NCBI RefSeq assembly: GCF_025264685.1
Contig: NZ_CP073721.1
Span: 859,001-923,000 of the forward strand
Length of the DNA: 64,000 nt
Reading direction: 5' to 3'
Source of the DNA: Dactylosporangium roseum
GTDB lineage: Bacteria > Actinomycetota > Actinomycetes > Mycobacteriales > Micromonosporaceae
Position 1 is the stretch's first letter. The number at the start of each line of letters is the position of its first letter. Below the pieces are notes generated by a model. The model worked only from the letters and a program-made list of their open reading frames with translations. It did no database searches and was not told where the DNA came from. Below, one piece after another: positions 33,868 through 62,720 of the stretch. The translations under genes and the position numbers were made by a program.

Positions 33868-35088
33868 TCACAGGGCCAGCACGACGGGAGCCCACAGGGC
33901 AACGCCCGTCCCGGCAGCGTGCGCCTTGCTGACGCCGTTGACGGATCGGGTCGCGGACAACCGCTGGACGCCGATGGAGACGTGATCCCACGTCAACATC
34001 ACCGGCAGCGTGTTCGTGTTGGCCGAGCTGAGGATGCCGCGCAGGCCGACAGACGGACCTGACGAGATGTCCGTGTCGGTCGCGGTGACCTGCCAGCCGA
34101 CCGGCTCGGCGGTACCGTCGAGCCACGTCCGGGCACTGAGCGTCGACCCGACCGCCGAGAAGGTCAACCCGAAGCGCCGCCCGGCCGCGTGGATCAGTGC
34201 GTTTGCCGAGGCGGTCGCCAGCAGGGTCTCTGTGCCGGCAACCCGTTTGCGCAGGGTCAGCGTCACTGTGGCGGAGGTCGAAAAATCCAGCCTCGCCAAA
34301 TAGGTGTTGTTTGTGTCAGTGAATCTCAATCCCGCCGCCGCGAAGTGCGAGCCGCCGGTCGCCAGGGCGTCCGTGGCGACGGTGACGGAGATCTGCTGGT
34401 CGGTCGTGCTCGTGGGATGGACCAGCGTCGCCCACCGGCTGACGTTGACGGATCCGAGCGACATCCGCCCCATACCCTCGTAGGCGCCGCTGACCGCCCT
34501 CGCGTAGTCGTAGAACGCCTGGGTTCTTGGGCCTGCACGGCTGGCCGCGCTGGTACTGCCGCCGACGAAGAAGCTGCTCCGCAGCGCGTTGGACATCTCC
34601 AACTGCACGCCGGCCGACCTCGCATTGAGATTGCAGATGTTGGCCGGATCGGTGCCCGCGATCTCGGACGGTGCCGTGATCACCGAAAAGCCGGCCGCCT
34701 GTAGGCGGCTTGTGATCCGGCCGACGAGCTCGGCGTCCAGGCCGCCGATCGCGGTCTCCGCAACCCCGGCCGTGCCGGTGAACCCGTGAAAACTCAGGGT
34801 GCGCTGCGACCCCGAGACCAGCGCGACGCAGTTTGGCTCATCAAACAATGCGCTTGTTATGTGCAGGTCGCTGTTGCCCGAGGTCTTGAGCCCGGCGAAC
34901 TGGTAGTAGCGCATCCGGCTACCCGCGACTTGCTGCGCCATCTCCCCGCTGCCACCCTCGATGCCGCCGCCGTGAATGCTGATGGCTGCCCACGTGGCCC
35001 CGGTCGGCGTGACGGCGGTGCGGGAGTAGTCGACGCCCTCGGTTTGCTCGGCCGCCAAGGCGGCGTACGACGTGTACGGCGGCGGCAT
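33868..35088 (-). CDS. Poly-gamma-glutamate hydrolase domain inside a split tail protein
   Basis: 406 residues. Residues 5-203 are a PghP/DUF867 zinc hydrolase: SIHGGGIEGG with His39, LSFHGFTG with His101, and GVQLEMS with Glu164 as ligand candidates. This family cuts poly-gamma-glutamate capsules. Residues about 206-375 (RMSLGSVNVSRWATLV; YLARLDFSTSATVTLTLRKR) are the second part of a jelly-roll domain whose first part ends the upstream gene. Residues 376-406 (LSATRSVNGVSKAHAAG) are the usual C-terminus of the large tail protein. The ATG directly follows the upstream TAG in the same frame, so this was evidently one gene. Confidence 0.8.
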   Translation of the reverse strand: MPPPYTSYAALAAEQTEGVDYSRTAVTPTGATWAAISIHGGGIEGGSGEMAQQVAGSRMRYYQFAGLKTSGNSDLHITSALFDEPNCVALVSGSQRTLSFHGFTGTAGVAETAIGGLDAELVGRITSRLQAAGFSVITAPSEIAGTDPANICNLNARSAGVQLEMSNALRSSFFVGGSTSAASRAGPRTQAFYDYARAVSGAYEGMGRMSLGSVNVSRWATLVHPTSTTDQQISVTVATDALATGGSHFAAAGLRFTDTNNTYLARLDFSTSATVTLTLRKRVAGTETLLATASANALIHAAGRRFGLTFSAVGSTLSARTWLDGTAEPVGWQVTATDTDISSGPSVGLRGILSSANTNTLPVMLTWDHVSIGVQRLSATRSVNGVSKAHAAGTGVALWAPVVLAL

Positions 35089-60602: not shown

Positions 60603-62246
60603 TCACATCCACGGCCAGGCCGCGCGTTTACCGGCCTCGATCAGCGGCACCATGCGGAACGTGGCGTCGGTCAGGCCGCCGAACTCGATCCGGTTGGTCT
60701 TGCCCGCCTCAATCGGGGTCGCGCGGTAACCGCCGAGGTTGAAGCCGTACATGGCGACCGTTGACGGAACCGCGTTGCTCACACCGTGCGCGTAGTGGCC
60801 GTCCATGGTCTGCATGTCCGAGATGATGAACACCCGGTCGTGACCTGCCCATGTCCGCTGCAACGAGGCGAGGATCTGCGTGCCGTGACCGACCTCACCG
60901 GTGCGCTTCAAGAAGCGGTCGATCTCCTTGAGCGCCGACGCACCCTTCGGCACCTCGTGCTTGAACACGCCATCGGCGAAGCCGTAGACGTCGGCGCCGC
61001 ATCGCATCGCCAGGACGACGCCGAACACGGCCGCGGCCTTCGCTGCGGTCATCGTCGACTTCGCCGAGAAGCGCCCGTTCGTCATCGACGCCGAGGTGTC
61101 GATGAGGACCAGCGTGCGGCCGTCGAGCTGCGGGACGTTCGACAGGGCGGCCGTCAGAGCCTTGTCCAGGGCGTGACCCCAGCGCAGCGACGGGGCGGCC
61201 TCGTAGGCGGCGAGGAACCGGAACGGGAACTGGCGTGACTTCGCCACCTGCTCCGGATCCGCGAGCCGCGCAGCCACCTGATCGGCGATCGCGTCGGGCA
61301 CACCAGCCTCGTCGAAGTTGCGCAGGTTGCGCAGCAGGGCCATATAGCCCATCGATGGGATGAGCGCCGCCCAGAGCTTCGCCTTGTCCAGCTTTGCGCC
61401 AACGAGGGAGAGAACGTCCTCCCACGTCATCCCAGCAGCGCGCAGCCGGTCGGCGTCGAGCATCGCCTGAGGGTCACCCTCGGCCAGCTCGCGCAGTTCG
61501 GCGTTCGCTCGGATCATCTCCAGCCGCTCCGGGGTCGGGTTGTCCCGATTGTGTCGCCGATCGATCGCGTGCTCGAACAGGTCACCCTGCCAGGCGCCAC
61601 GCCACCGGTTGCCCTGCGAGCTGCCCTTGCGGTCGCCCGGGTGGGTCAGCTCCAGCACGTCGGCGAACCGCACGCCGCGCGATCCCGTGTCGTACTTGAG
61701 GAGCGGGTACTCCGCGTAGAGGCGCATCGCGGCGTCGGCGACACCCCGCTTGACCGGCTTCGGGATTGCGCGGCCGTAGGTCGACGTCCAGTAGGCCAGC
61801 ATCTCGCCCGGCTCGTCCGCTCGCTGACACACGGCGTCGATCACGGCGCGCTCAATGCCACGGTCGTCGGACCAGCCCGGCACCTCGTGCGCCGGGACGC
61901 TCGGCACCCTCACCTCAAGGCGCGCCTTCACGAACTCGGCCGCGCCGACGAGCGACGCCGAGCGCATGTTGCCGTCGGAGCGCAGCCAGCGGAGCAGGCC
62001 GACCGTCCAGATCGGATCCTCGATCGCGGCCTGACGGACCAGCTTGGCGTAGCGGGCGTCACGGTCCGACGCCTTCTCGTAGAACGTGTCCTCGCCAACC
62101 ATGTTGCTCACGGCCAGCAGGAAGAGTTCGGACTGGATGTCCCGGACGAACGCCGGAGCGCCCTCGTGGGTCACGCCCGGACCAGCCACGACGATCGGGC
62201 CGGCGCCCTTCGCCGGCCTCGTTGCGGTGGAGTTGAACTTGCTCAC
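60603..62246 (-). CDS. TROVE-domain Ro60-like RNA-binding protein
   Basis: 547 residues from GTG 62246 (GGGAG upstream; ATG 62261 possible). Residues about 10-340 form the HEAT-repeat TROVE ring (FVRDIQSELFLLAVSNMVGED; WTVGLLRWLRSDGNMRSASLVGAAEFVKA). From about 370 a vWA domain with the MIDAS motif DTSASM near residue 386 and TGEVGHGT follows. In Ro60, structured RNAs such as Y RNAs bind the outer ring surface and misfolded RNA ends enter the cavity. In Deinococcus and mycobacteria the bacterial protein works with nucleases. Three Y-RNA-like genes lie immediately upstream. Phage copies are rare. Confidence 0.92.
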   Translation of the reverse strand: MSKFNSTATRPAKGAGPIVVAGPGVTHEGAPAFVRDIQSELFLLAVSNMVGEDTFYEKASDRDARYAKLVRQAAIEDPIWTVGLLRWLRSDGNMRSASLVGAAEFVKARLEVRVPSVPAHEVPGWSDDRGIERAVIDAVCQRADEPGEMLAYWTSTYGRAIPKPVKRGVADAAMRLYAEYPLLKYDTGSRGVRFADVLELTHPGDRKGSSQGNRWRGAWQGDLFEHAIDRRHNRDNPTPERLEMIRANAELRELAEGDPQAMLDADRLRAAGMTWEDVLSLVGAKLDKAKLWAALIPSMGYMALLRNLRNFDEAGVPDAIADQVAARLADPEQVAKSRQFPFRFLAAYEAAPSLRWGHALDKALTAALSNVPQLDGRTLVLIDTSASMTNGRFSAKSTMTAAKAAAVFGVVLAMRCGADVYGFADGVFKHEVPKGASALKEIDRFLKRTGEVGHGTQILASLQRTWAGHDRVFIISDMQTMDGHYAHGVSNAVPSTVAMYGFNLGGYRATPIEAGKTNRIEFGGLTDATFRMVPLIEAGKRAAWPWM

Positions 62247-62292
62247 GGAAACGGCTCCCATCCGGATGTGGAGGGAGCCGCAGGCCAGATGT

Positions 62293-62429
62293 GATGCCCG
62301 AGATCAAGTCGGTCCGGCGGTCGTTTGGTGCTCTGCCAGTTGAGCTACCTCGACAAGTCGAGGACGGGACTCGAACCCGCAACCACCCCATTAACAGTGG
62401 AAGAACTCCGAACCTGCGCACCGGGCATC
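62293..62429 (-). ncRNA. Y-RNA-like RNA 1 with permuted tRNA-Asn module
   Basis: About 137 nt. Outer stem GATGCCCG/CGGGCATC (8 bp), conserved internal-loop strands GTGCGCA and GACTTGATCT, inner stem GGTTCGG/CCGGACC. The distal part folds as a tRNA read in permuted order: anticodon arm with loop CTGTTAA (62391-62397), variable TGGTT, T arm with loop TTCGAGT, acceptor 3' strand CCTCGAC, TT, acceptor 5' strand GTCGAGG, TA, D arm GCTC-AACTGGCA-GAGC. U8, A14, G18, G19, A21, T54-A58 positions are all present. CTTG caps the acceptor. Bacterial YrlA RNAs have the same plan. Confidence 0.8.
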
Positions 62430-62444
62430 CATCTGAAGTTGTGA

Positions 62445-62583
62445 CTCCCCGAGATCAAGTCGGCTGACGGTGTGCCACACGCCATGTGGCTGGCGAGCCG
62501 CGAACCTTGCGGAGCGGCTGCCCGGACTCGAACCGGATTCTTGTGAAGGAAGAAGTAACCGTCGAAGCCTGCGCACCGGGGAG
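62445..62583 (-). ncRNA. Y-RNA-like RNA 2 with degenerate tRNA module
   Basis: About 139 nt. Outer stem CTCCCCG/CGGGGAG (7 bp), conserved strands GTGCGCA and GACTTGATCT as in RNA 1, inner stem GGCT..GACGG/CCGTC-AGCC. Distal part: 5-bp TTCTT/AAGAA arm with 7-base loop CCTTCAC (62543-62549), T arm with loop TTCGAGT (62526-62532), acceptor AGCCGC/GCGGCT capped by a GCAA tetraloop, D-like arm CGCC-AGCCACAT-GGCG without the G18-G19 pair. Tandem to RNA 1, separated by 15 bases. Confidence 0.75.
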
Positions 62584-62600
62584 GTGCATATCGAGTTGTG

Positions 62601-62670
62601 GCCGCCGAGATCAGAGCGGACCCGGTCTTTTTCATGCCAGAGAAGTATCCGAGCCCTTCGCACCGGCGGC
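62601..62670 (-). ncRNA. Y-RNA-like RNA 3, minimal form
   Basis: About 70 nt. Outer stem GCCGCCG/CGGCGGC (7 bp), conserved strands GTGCGAAGG and CTCTGATCT, short inner pairing CGGA/TCCG, then a small loop region with CTGG/CCGG. No tRNA-like module. The conserved strands align with those of RNA 1 and RNA 2, so it should bind the same protein. Confidence 0.65.
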
Positions 62671-62720
62671 GCACCATCGACGGTACACCGTGCGGATCCC
62701 GTTGTTAAACCGGATTTGGG

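Follow-up and report, generated by a model that had tools for sequence, protein, structure and literature searches.

A gene for a TROVE/Ro60 (Rsr-type) protein, preceded on the same strand by three Y-type RNAs, was analysed in a prophage of Dactylosporangium roseum. The stretch of DNA studied (the window) comprises 64,000 nucleotides, positions 859001-923000 of the 8.22-Mb single-contig genome of that organism. RNA-C, the last of the three RNAs, is predicted to contain an entire tRNA in circularly permuted form, with its anticodon arm; many, not all, of the related RNAs in other loci are predicted to carry one as well. There is very little doubt about the anatomy itself, i.e. the combination of a Ro60 gene, Y-type RNAs and a permuted tRNA. 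The relevant features are as follows.

60603..62261, minus strand: TROVE/Ro60 (Rsr-type) protein gene, 552 amino acids (Pfam TROVE, PHROG 850 and PDB sequence matches)
62293..62429, minus strand: RNA-C, Y-type RNA, 137 nt, complete circularly permuted tRNA-Asn(GUU) (R1 model, YrlA model, rotated tRNA call)
62330..62345, minus strand: RNA-C D arm (YrlA match, covariation alignment)
62348..62363, minus strand: RNA-C acceptor stem, closed by a CUUG tetraloop (fold, YrlA match, covariation alignment)
62364..62380, minus strand: RNA-C T arm (YrlA match, covariation alignment)
62386..62402, minus strand: RNA-C anticodon arm, UUCCA-CUGUUAA-UGGGG, with the anticodon GUU at 62393-62395
62445..62583, minus strand: RNA-B, Y-type RNA, 139 nt, with a T arm and an acceptor-like hairpin (R1 model)
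62601..62670, minus strand: RNA-A, short Y-type RNA, 70 nt, basal element alone (R2 model, aligned relatives)

The permuted tRNA and its anticodon arm

The modules of RNA-C follow one another in a permuted order (anticodon arm, variable region, T arm, closed acceptor stem, D arm), with a Ro-type stem between the D and anticodon arms. Five bases lie between the anticodon arm and the T arm, as in the spacing of a tRNA, and RNA-C rotated to the normal order is called as tRNA-Asn(gtt). The minimum-energy fold of RNA-C holds the anticodon arm as a 3-bp hairpin. When RNA-C was compared with phage records by blastn, annotated tRNA-Asn genes were matched with 88-91% identity over the anticodon and T arms (25 of 64 records listed). 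The same design was observed in Caulobacter phage CcrColossus and Xanthomonas phage 10KY502B.

Relatives were fetched by way of the protein, and comprised 71 viral loci, 80 genome loci (the best 80 of 93 confirmed), 63 phage records and 44 plasmid records; individual loci are designated by L numbers. Among nine-base words, GGTTACTTC is the most frequent in the viral loci: it is present in 57 of the 71, and most copies fall within the RNAs, in the segment that separates helix 2 from the anticodon place. A conservative motif finder, which required GGTGCG-like, GGTTACTTC-like and GATCTCGG-like boxes together with seven closing pairs, yielded 146 RNAs in 53 of the 71 viral loci, 154 in 70 of the 80 genome loci and 3 in the window, representing 290 distinct sequences. 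On the reverse strand the finder returned 2 viral hits, 1 genome hit and none in the window, and a single dinucleotide shuffle each of the window and the 71 viral loci gave 1 hit, compared with 149 in the real sequences. This comparison is decisive, and the RNAs are therefore considered real. The finder is blind to Y RNAs with other 3′ boxes: it returned none in nine named phage loci (L193-L201) where covariance models match. Two such models were built, R1 from 72 long RNAs and R2 from 69 short RNAs.

The anticodon arm was assessed in the 170 distinct RNAs possessing a T arm. At the fixed offset expected of a tRNA, 66 of the 170 have five pairs, U33 and a purine at position 37, while 200 shuffles gave 0.80 on average and never more than 4. 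Where RNAs were chosen on pairing only, 72 of 170 had a 5-bp stem; U33 is present in 69 of the 72 and a purine at position 37 likewise in 69, with positions 34-36 varying. The 66 strict arms contain 29 anticodons, and 45 of their loops are identical to a tRNA loop of the fetched loci; with shuffled columns this was true of 23.5 on average and of 33 at most. R1 found 110 RNAs in the genome loci, 99 of them with a T arm; 41 of the 99 pass the arm test, against a mean of 0.46, and the two inner pairs of the anticodon stem show changes at both positions (42 of 89 and 35 of 79 lettered rows).

It was also of interest to compare the body of each tRNA-like module with the amino acid indicated by its anticodon. 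The nearest module body agreed in 9 of 63 cases (null mean 3.8; reached in 34 of 5000), and agreement within the five nearest was found in 20 of 63 (null 11.2; reached in 12 of 5000); 3 of the 66 strict-arm RNAs, which have no acceptor stem, were dropped from this test. Body and anticodon thus agree in amino acid somewhat more often than by chance, the excess being modest.

Support for the helices from covariation

After removal of near-duplicates the long set contained 73 RNAs, of which 72 were aligned. The one left out, L055:8641-8785, seems to hold a tRNA in normal order. This RNA and L044:8402-8543 are Y RNA frames that appear to enclose a normal-order tRNA, judging from ARAGORN calls inside them. 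All 69 picked RNAs of the short set were aligned.

The sequence-only reading of this DNA had proposed, from covarying outer stems, that the helices were real, and the alignments bear this out. The covariation score of the 72 long RNAs was 0.591, as against 0.171 when shuffled (reached in 0 of 500) and 0.08-0.125 with the partners slid; 93.8% of cells were paired, compared with 71.3% on shuffling, and changes on both sides were observed at 29 of 35 pairs. The outer stem had been selected in part by the finder, and the T and anticodon arms by the choice of rows. No such selection acted on helix 2, the acceptor hairpin or the D arm, which show both-side changes at 17 of 18 pairs. In the short set (69 relatives of RNA-A) such changes occur at 12 of 14 predicted pairs. 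RNAalifold, run unaided, recovered every drawn helix of the long set except the anticodon arm, and the outer stem and helix 2 of the short set; the omission tells against the anticodon arm.

The three RNAs of the window

In the direction of transcription RNA-A is first, followed by RNA-B and RNA-C, and 31 nt separate the end of RNA-C from the ATG of the TROVE gene. The outer stems are GCCGCCG/CGGCGGC in RNA-A, CTCCCCG/CGGGGAG in RNA-B and GATGCCCG/CGGGCATC in RNA-C. Two internal strands, CCGGTGCGCAGG and CCGACTTGATCTCGG, are exactly the same in RNA-B and RNA-C, and are represented by the variants CCGGTGCGAAGG and CCGCTCTGATCTCGG in RNA-A. Three same-strand RNAs upstream of a TROVE gene, with these positions and outer stems and with the two internal strands shared by all (few changes in one), were what the sequence-only reading had described, and its description is accurate. 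The order of GGUGCGA, stem and GGUUACUUC in the window and its relatives is reminiscent of that of the animal Y RNAs, in which GGUCCGA is followed by a stem and by GGUUAUC. The RNAs have the features of bacterial Y RNAs, namely a basal stem with conserved strands, an adjoining TROVE gene and helices that have been kept, and the shared basal element suggests that RNA-A, RNA-B and RNA-C would dock on Ro60 through it.

The earlier description had treated the three RNAs alike, and had missed the permuted tRNA of RNA-C together with its anticodon arm. RNA-A has no tRNA-like module. That of RNA-B is only partly tRNA-like, as U33 is missing from the hairpin in the anticodon position and the D position has an atypical form. 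Since the permuted tRNA is present in RNA-C, partial in RNA-B and absent from RNA-A, the three are not equivalent.

R1 gave 129.4 bits for RNA-C, a training sequence, and 65.2 bits for RNA-B, which was outside the training set; the R2 score of RNA-A, also a training sequence, was 70.6 bits. A check by folding, which had been proposed earlier, found all three to be somewhat more stable than shuffled sequences, with z-scores of -2.2 (RNA-A), -3.0 (RNA-B) and -1.8 (RNA-C); these values are moderate, so energy by itself is suggestive and does not prove the structures. The search with a YrlA model, proposed at the same time, succeeded in part. The Rfam YrlA model RF02553 matched RNA-C with 44.5 bits (E 1.1e-8), which is below its gathering score of 69, and RNA-C is therefore regarded as YrlA-like and not as a member of YrlA. 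RNA-A and RNA-B were not among the RF02553 matches at E up to 1, and no Rfam family matched the window at its gathering threshold.

The TROVE gene lies on the minus strand where it had been placed from the sequence, and its reading frame is open over the full length. The Pfam TROVE match is 70.9 bits, above the curated cut-off of 23, with the best stretch at residues 278-355, and PHROG 850 matches residues 28-551. Sequence matches in PDB were 9l5y, 9kop and the D. radiodurans Rsr, 2nvo. The putative C-terminal vWA part is matched by Pfam VWA_2 with 21.7 bits, below the cut-off of 27, and the protein can be aligned through the vWA region to solved TROVE proteins; the sequence DTSAS, which we take to be a MIDAS-type motif, is readable in it. 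This is the single TROVE match in the whole genome by the Pfam TROVE search. The closest relatives among the genome loci (best 80 of 93) are from Micromonosporaceae, with 61-65% identity over the best segment.

Arrays in related loci

It had been suggested that an array of three members would be unusual. This proved not to be so. In the 71 viral loci, many of which supplied training sequences for the models, R1 and R2 found at least one RNA in 69, at least two in 62 and at least three in 46, with a maximum of eight (L013); the last count is 45 without three weak matches in L019, a tRNA-rich record (192-327, 1112-1235 and 2252-2405). Neither model matched L021 or L025, whose records break off 63 and 220 bases, respectively, ahead of the TROVE match; in L025 the motif is visible at the extreme edge. 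Loci outside the training set also match R1, i.e. all nine named phage loci (L193-L201) and phage loci L203, L204, L205 and L207. By finder classes the commonest array is a short RNA followed by a tRNA-like one (26 sources); the order in the window (short, tRNA-like, tRNA-like) is found in 8 sources including the window, and the spacers are mostly 11-24 nt. The number of members in the window array is thus ordinary, and it is RNA-C, as a complete permuted tRNA, that is notable. The R1 and R2 models provide a tool for finding phage Ro60 arrays.

Several further loci are worth recording. L079, L084 and L087, from genomes of the same class, have strong R1 matches (best 110-117 bits) as well as R2 matches. 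In Mycobacterium phage Phabba, L206:2471-2606 is a full-length R1 match of 69 bits situated in an unannotated gap of a tRNA cluster, and no Ro60 gene is annotated within the 5 kb fetched. Plasmid p1 of Bifidobacterium longum (L185) has a TROVE-like gene, more than 10 tRNA matches and an RNA ligase gene clustered together, with two weak Y RNA matches.

Relation to known systems

The likeness to YrlA (RF02553) is extensive, and includes the basal Ro stem, the T arm, the closed acceptor stem, the D arm, their permuted order and the adjoining TROVE gene. Only RNA-C has the complete D/T/acceptor module, RNA-B having it in part and RNA-A not at all. RNA-C differs from YrlA in scoring below the gathering value, in possessing a full anticodon arm and in residing in an array with a short RNA. 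No hairpin is present at the anticodon place of the RF02553 consensus, and a review, in the text consulted, names D, T and acceptor arms and no anticodon arm (PMC8394870). A short hairpin of GUU type does occur, as an insertion relative to the Rfam model, in two Rhizobiaceae YrlA RNAs that adjoin rtcR-linked TROVE genes, and the anticodon arm is therefore not confined to phages. No description of anticodon-bearing permuted tRNAs was found in the literature searched, as far as those texts were available; key original Y RNA papers were outside its scope, and may mention the arm.

The Deinococcus RYPER system likewise combines a TROVE protein with an upstream Y RNA, and R1 matches the D. gobiensis Y RNA with 79.3 bits; that RNA, in contrast, has only 3 pairs at the anticodon place. 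Phage Y RNAs are already in print, including a tentative case of three. In Listeria phage CKA15, three highly transcribed non-coding regions lie less than 2 kb upstream of an Rsr-like gene, and were tentatively read as Y RNAs by the authors (PMC12282133). The arrangement is like that of the window in that a phage Rsr-type gene is downstream of several same-strand RNAs, and differs in that the available description of CKA15, by which alone it was compared, includes no permuted tRNA or anticodon arm (PMC12282133). For mycobacteriophage LeBron, overproduction of a Ro-like protein was reported to slow growth (PMC13148394).

Expression signals

A strict promoter scan found nothing. A looser test gave the following predicted elements.

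62703..62708, minus strand: -35-like hexamer, TTAACA
62680..62685, minus strand: -10-like hexamer, TACCGT, 9 nt before RNA-A, spacing 17

Of 124 sources, 51 have a TANNNT hexamer ending 5-20 nt before the first RNA, where random positions gave 2.5 on average and never more than 9; a -35-like hexamer accompanies it in 18 sources, compared with 0.3 at random. Before the later RNAs of arrays it occurs in only 13 of 179 cases. This pattern fits a single transcript that would span the array and be cut afterwards.

Possible function of the arrays

The reading preferred here, tentatively and at somewhat short of even probability, is that the Ro60 particles present imitation tRNAs, as decoys, to tRNA-binding or tRNA-cutting enzymes. 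The array would be transcribed from the promoter-like site before RNA-A and the transcript cut into separate RNAs; these would bind Ro60 through the shared basal stem, and the bound RNAs would then act as decoys for host factors directed at tRNAs, such as anticodon nucleases. The tRNA face on offer might differ from one RNA of an array to another, while the short RNA would load Ro60 without one. That the anticodon loop is kept while the anticodon is free suggests proteins that recognise tRNAs by their anticodon end. A role as competitive inhibitor has been proposed for the tRNA-like part of YrlA (PMC7790460), and phage tRNAs have been proposed to counter host defences that cut tRNAs (PMC10264068). 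The latter are similar in being phage-encoded tRNA shapes with tRNA-type anticodon loops; they are normal tRNAs, however, whereas the type seen in the window has a permuted order, a closed acceptor end and a Ro-type stem attached to it. The role of the tRNA-like part of bacterial Y RNAs is made directly testable by these observations.

A broader version of the decoy proposal is possible, if rather doubtful: phages of Actinobacteria and Proteobacteria would carry an exchangeable decoy rack, Ro60 rings loaded from Y RNA arrays, many with a closed permuted tRNA whose tRNA-type anticodon loop would vary in isoacceptor, which would draw off host tRNA nucleases or modifying enzymes, some of these RNAs being annotated as ordinary phage tRNAs.

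A number of observations weigh against the decoy reading. A perfect 5-bp anticodon stem is lacking in 98 of the 170 T-arm RNAs, and unaided RNAalifold did not predict the arm in the 72 long RNAs. Calls by ARAGORN on rotated sequences were rejected as proof of the arm, as 131 of 170 were called and 123-129 of 170 were still called after that stretch had been shuffled. The anticodons within one array differed in 10 of the 10 loci with two strict arms, as chance would give. The TROVE protein had no match in PADLOC. An RNA ligase, which would be expected in a setting of tRNA damage, was over the cut-off in only 9 of 57 records, and was dropped as a general partner. Finally, no cutting of Salmonella YrlA was seen with the nuclease examined in one study, which fits an inhibitor and not a sacrificial substrate (PMC7790460).

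The arrays may instead encode a decay machine of the RYPER type, in which Y RNAs tether the phage Ro60 to host PNPase and structured RNAs are degraded during infection. This is a credible alternative to which we give a minor share of the probability. A PNPase tether has been described for D. radiodurans (PMC8394870, PMC7790460), R1 matches the Rhizobiaceae YrlA RNAs (58.2 and 54.1 bits) in addition to the D. gobiensis Y RNA, and the authors of the Listeria phage study favoured a similar role (PMC12282133). Such a machine leaves the kept U33/purine-37 anticodon loop unexplained: a PNPase tether would have no need of U33 or purine 37, whereas mimicry of a tRNA towards a protein reading the anticodon would, and for this reason the decoy reading is ranked somewhat higher. 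Both can be true.

It is unlikely that the system serves RNA quality control or packaging, with Ro60 and its Y RNAs guarding or handling phage or host non-coding RNAs and perhaps travelling in the virion. The Rsr-like protein is present in purified CKA15 virions (PMC12282133), and several phage Ro60 genes are inside tRNA gene clusters, but the tRNA search found no tRNA gene within the 64-kb window, and no client RNA was linked to the RNAs in the present analysis. Functionless drift of captured tRNA pieces is more improbable still; the decayed module of RNA-B would fit a relic, but the TROVE frame is fully open, and covariation and promoter-like sites have been kept across many phages. The idea that these are permuted tRNA genes, cut and rejoined into working tRNAs, can be given hardly any weight: the tRNA parts are complete and in permuted order, and CCA occupies the first positions of the acceptor loop in 13 of 154 (too weak for CCA remnants to be retained as a signal), but the Ro stem would have to be excised and the ends ligated, the ligase being as infrequent as described above, and many modules have no good anticodon stem.

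Annotation of phage tRNAs and of YrlA

R1 was run on the loci of 13 named phage records, and in 7 of these records the 5′ part of a Y RNA is covered by an annotated tRNA gene. These are tRNA-Arg(tct) in VanLee, tRNA-Arg(cct) in GiJojo, tRNA-Pro(tgg) in Frankenweenie, tRNA-Asn in SM23, tRNA-Thr in 10KY502B, tRNA-Arg(tct) in Magritte and tRNA-Gln in CcrColossus. Because a blastn match to RNA-C was the reason for fetching the last four records, three of which had a tRNA named at the matching place, only the other nine give an unbiased count, which is 3 of 9. The neighbouring gene in SM23 is annotated as an RNA-binding protein. Some annotated phage tRNAs are thus not tRNAs, which bears on counts of phage tRNAs.

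RF02553 was also tried as a census of genomes. It matched 105 of 396 genomes and 6 of 14 control genomes; because many of the matches were neighbouring normal tRNA genes, the tally was dropped. In L075-L104, many matches are adjacent pairs of normal tRNA genes that mimic a permuted tRNA. YrlA calls made automatically on genomes should be treated with caution.

Prophage context

Minus-strand genes at 29.9-57.9 kb of the window include matches to an antirepressor, tape measure, major head protein, head maturation protease, portal and large terminase. These matches identify the region as a prophage, in agreement with what had been read from the sequence. The packaging genes are downstream of the TROVE gene, which sits upstream of them. 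In the tail region, the gene at 33871-35088 (minus strand) matches a poly-gamma-glutamate hydrolase family (PHROG 4175).

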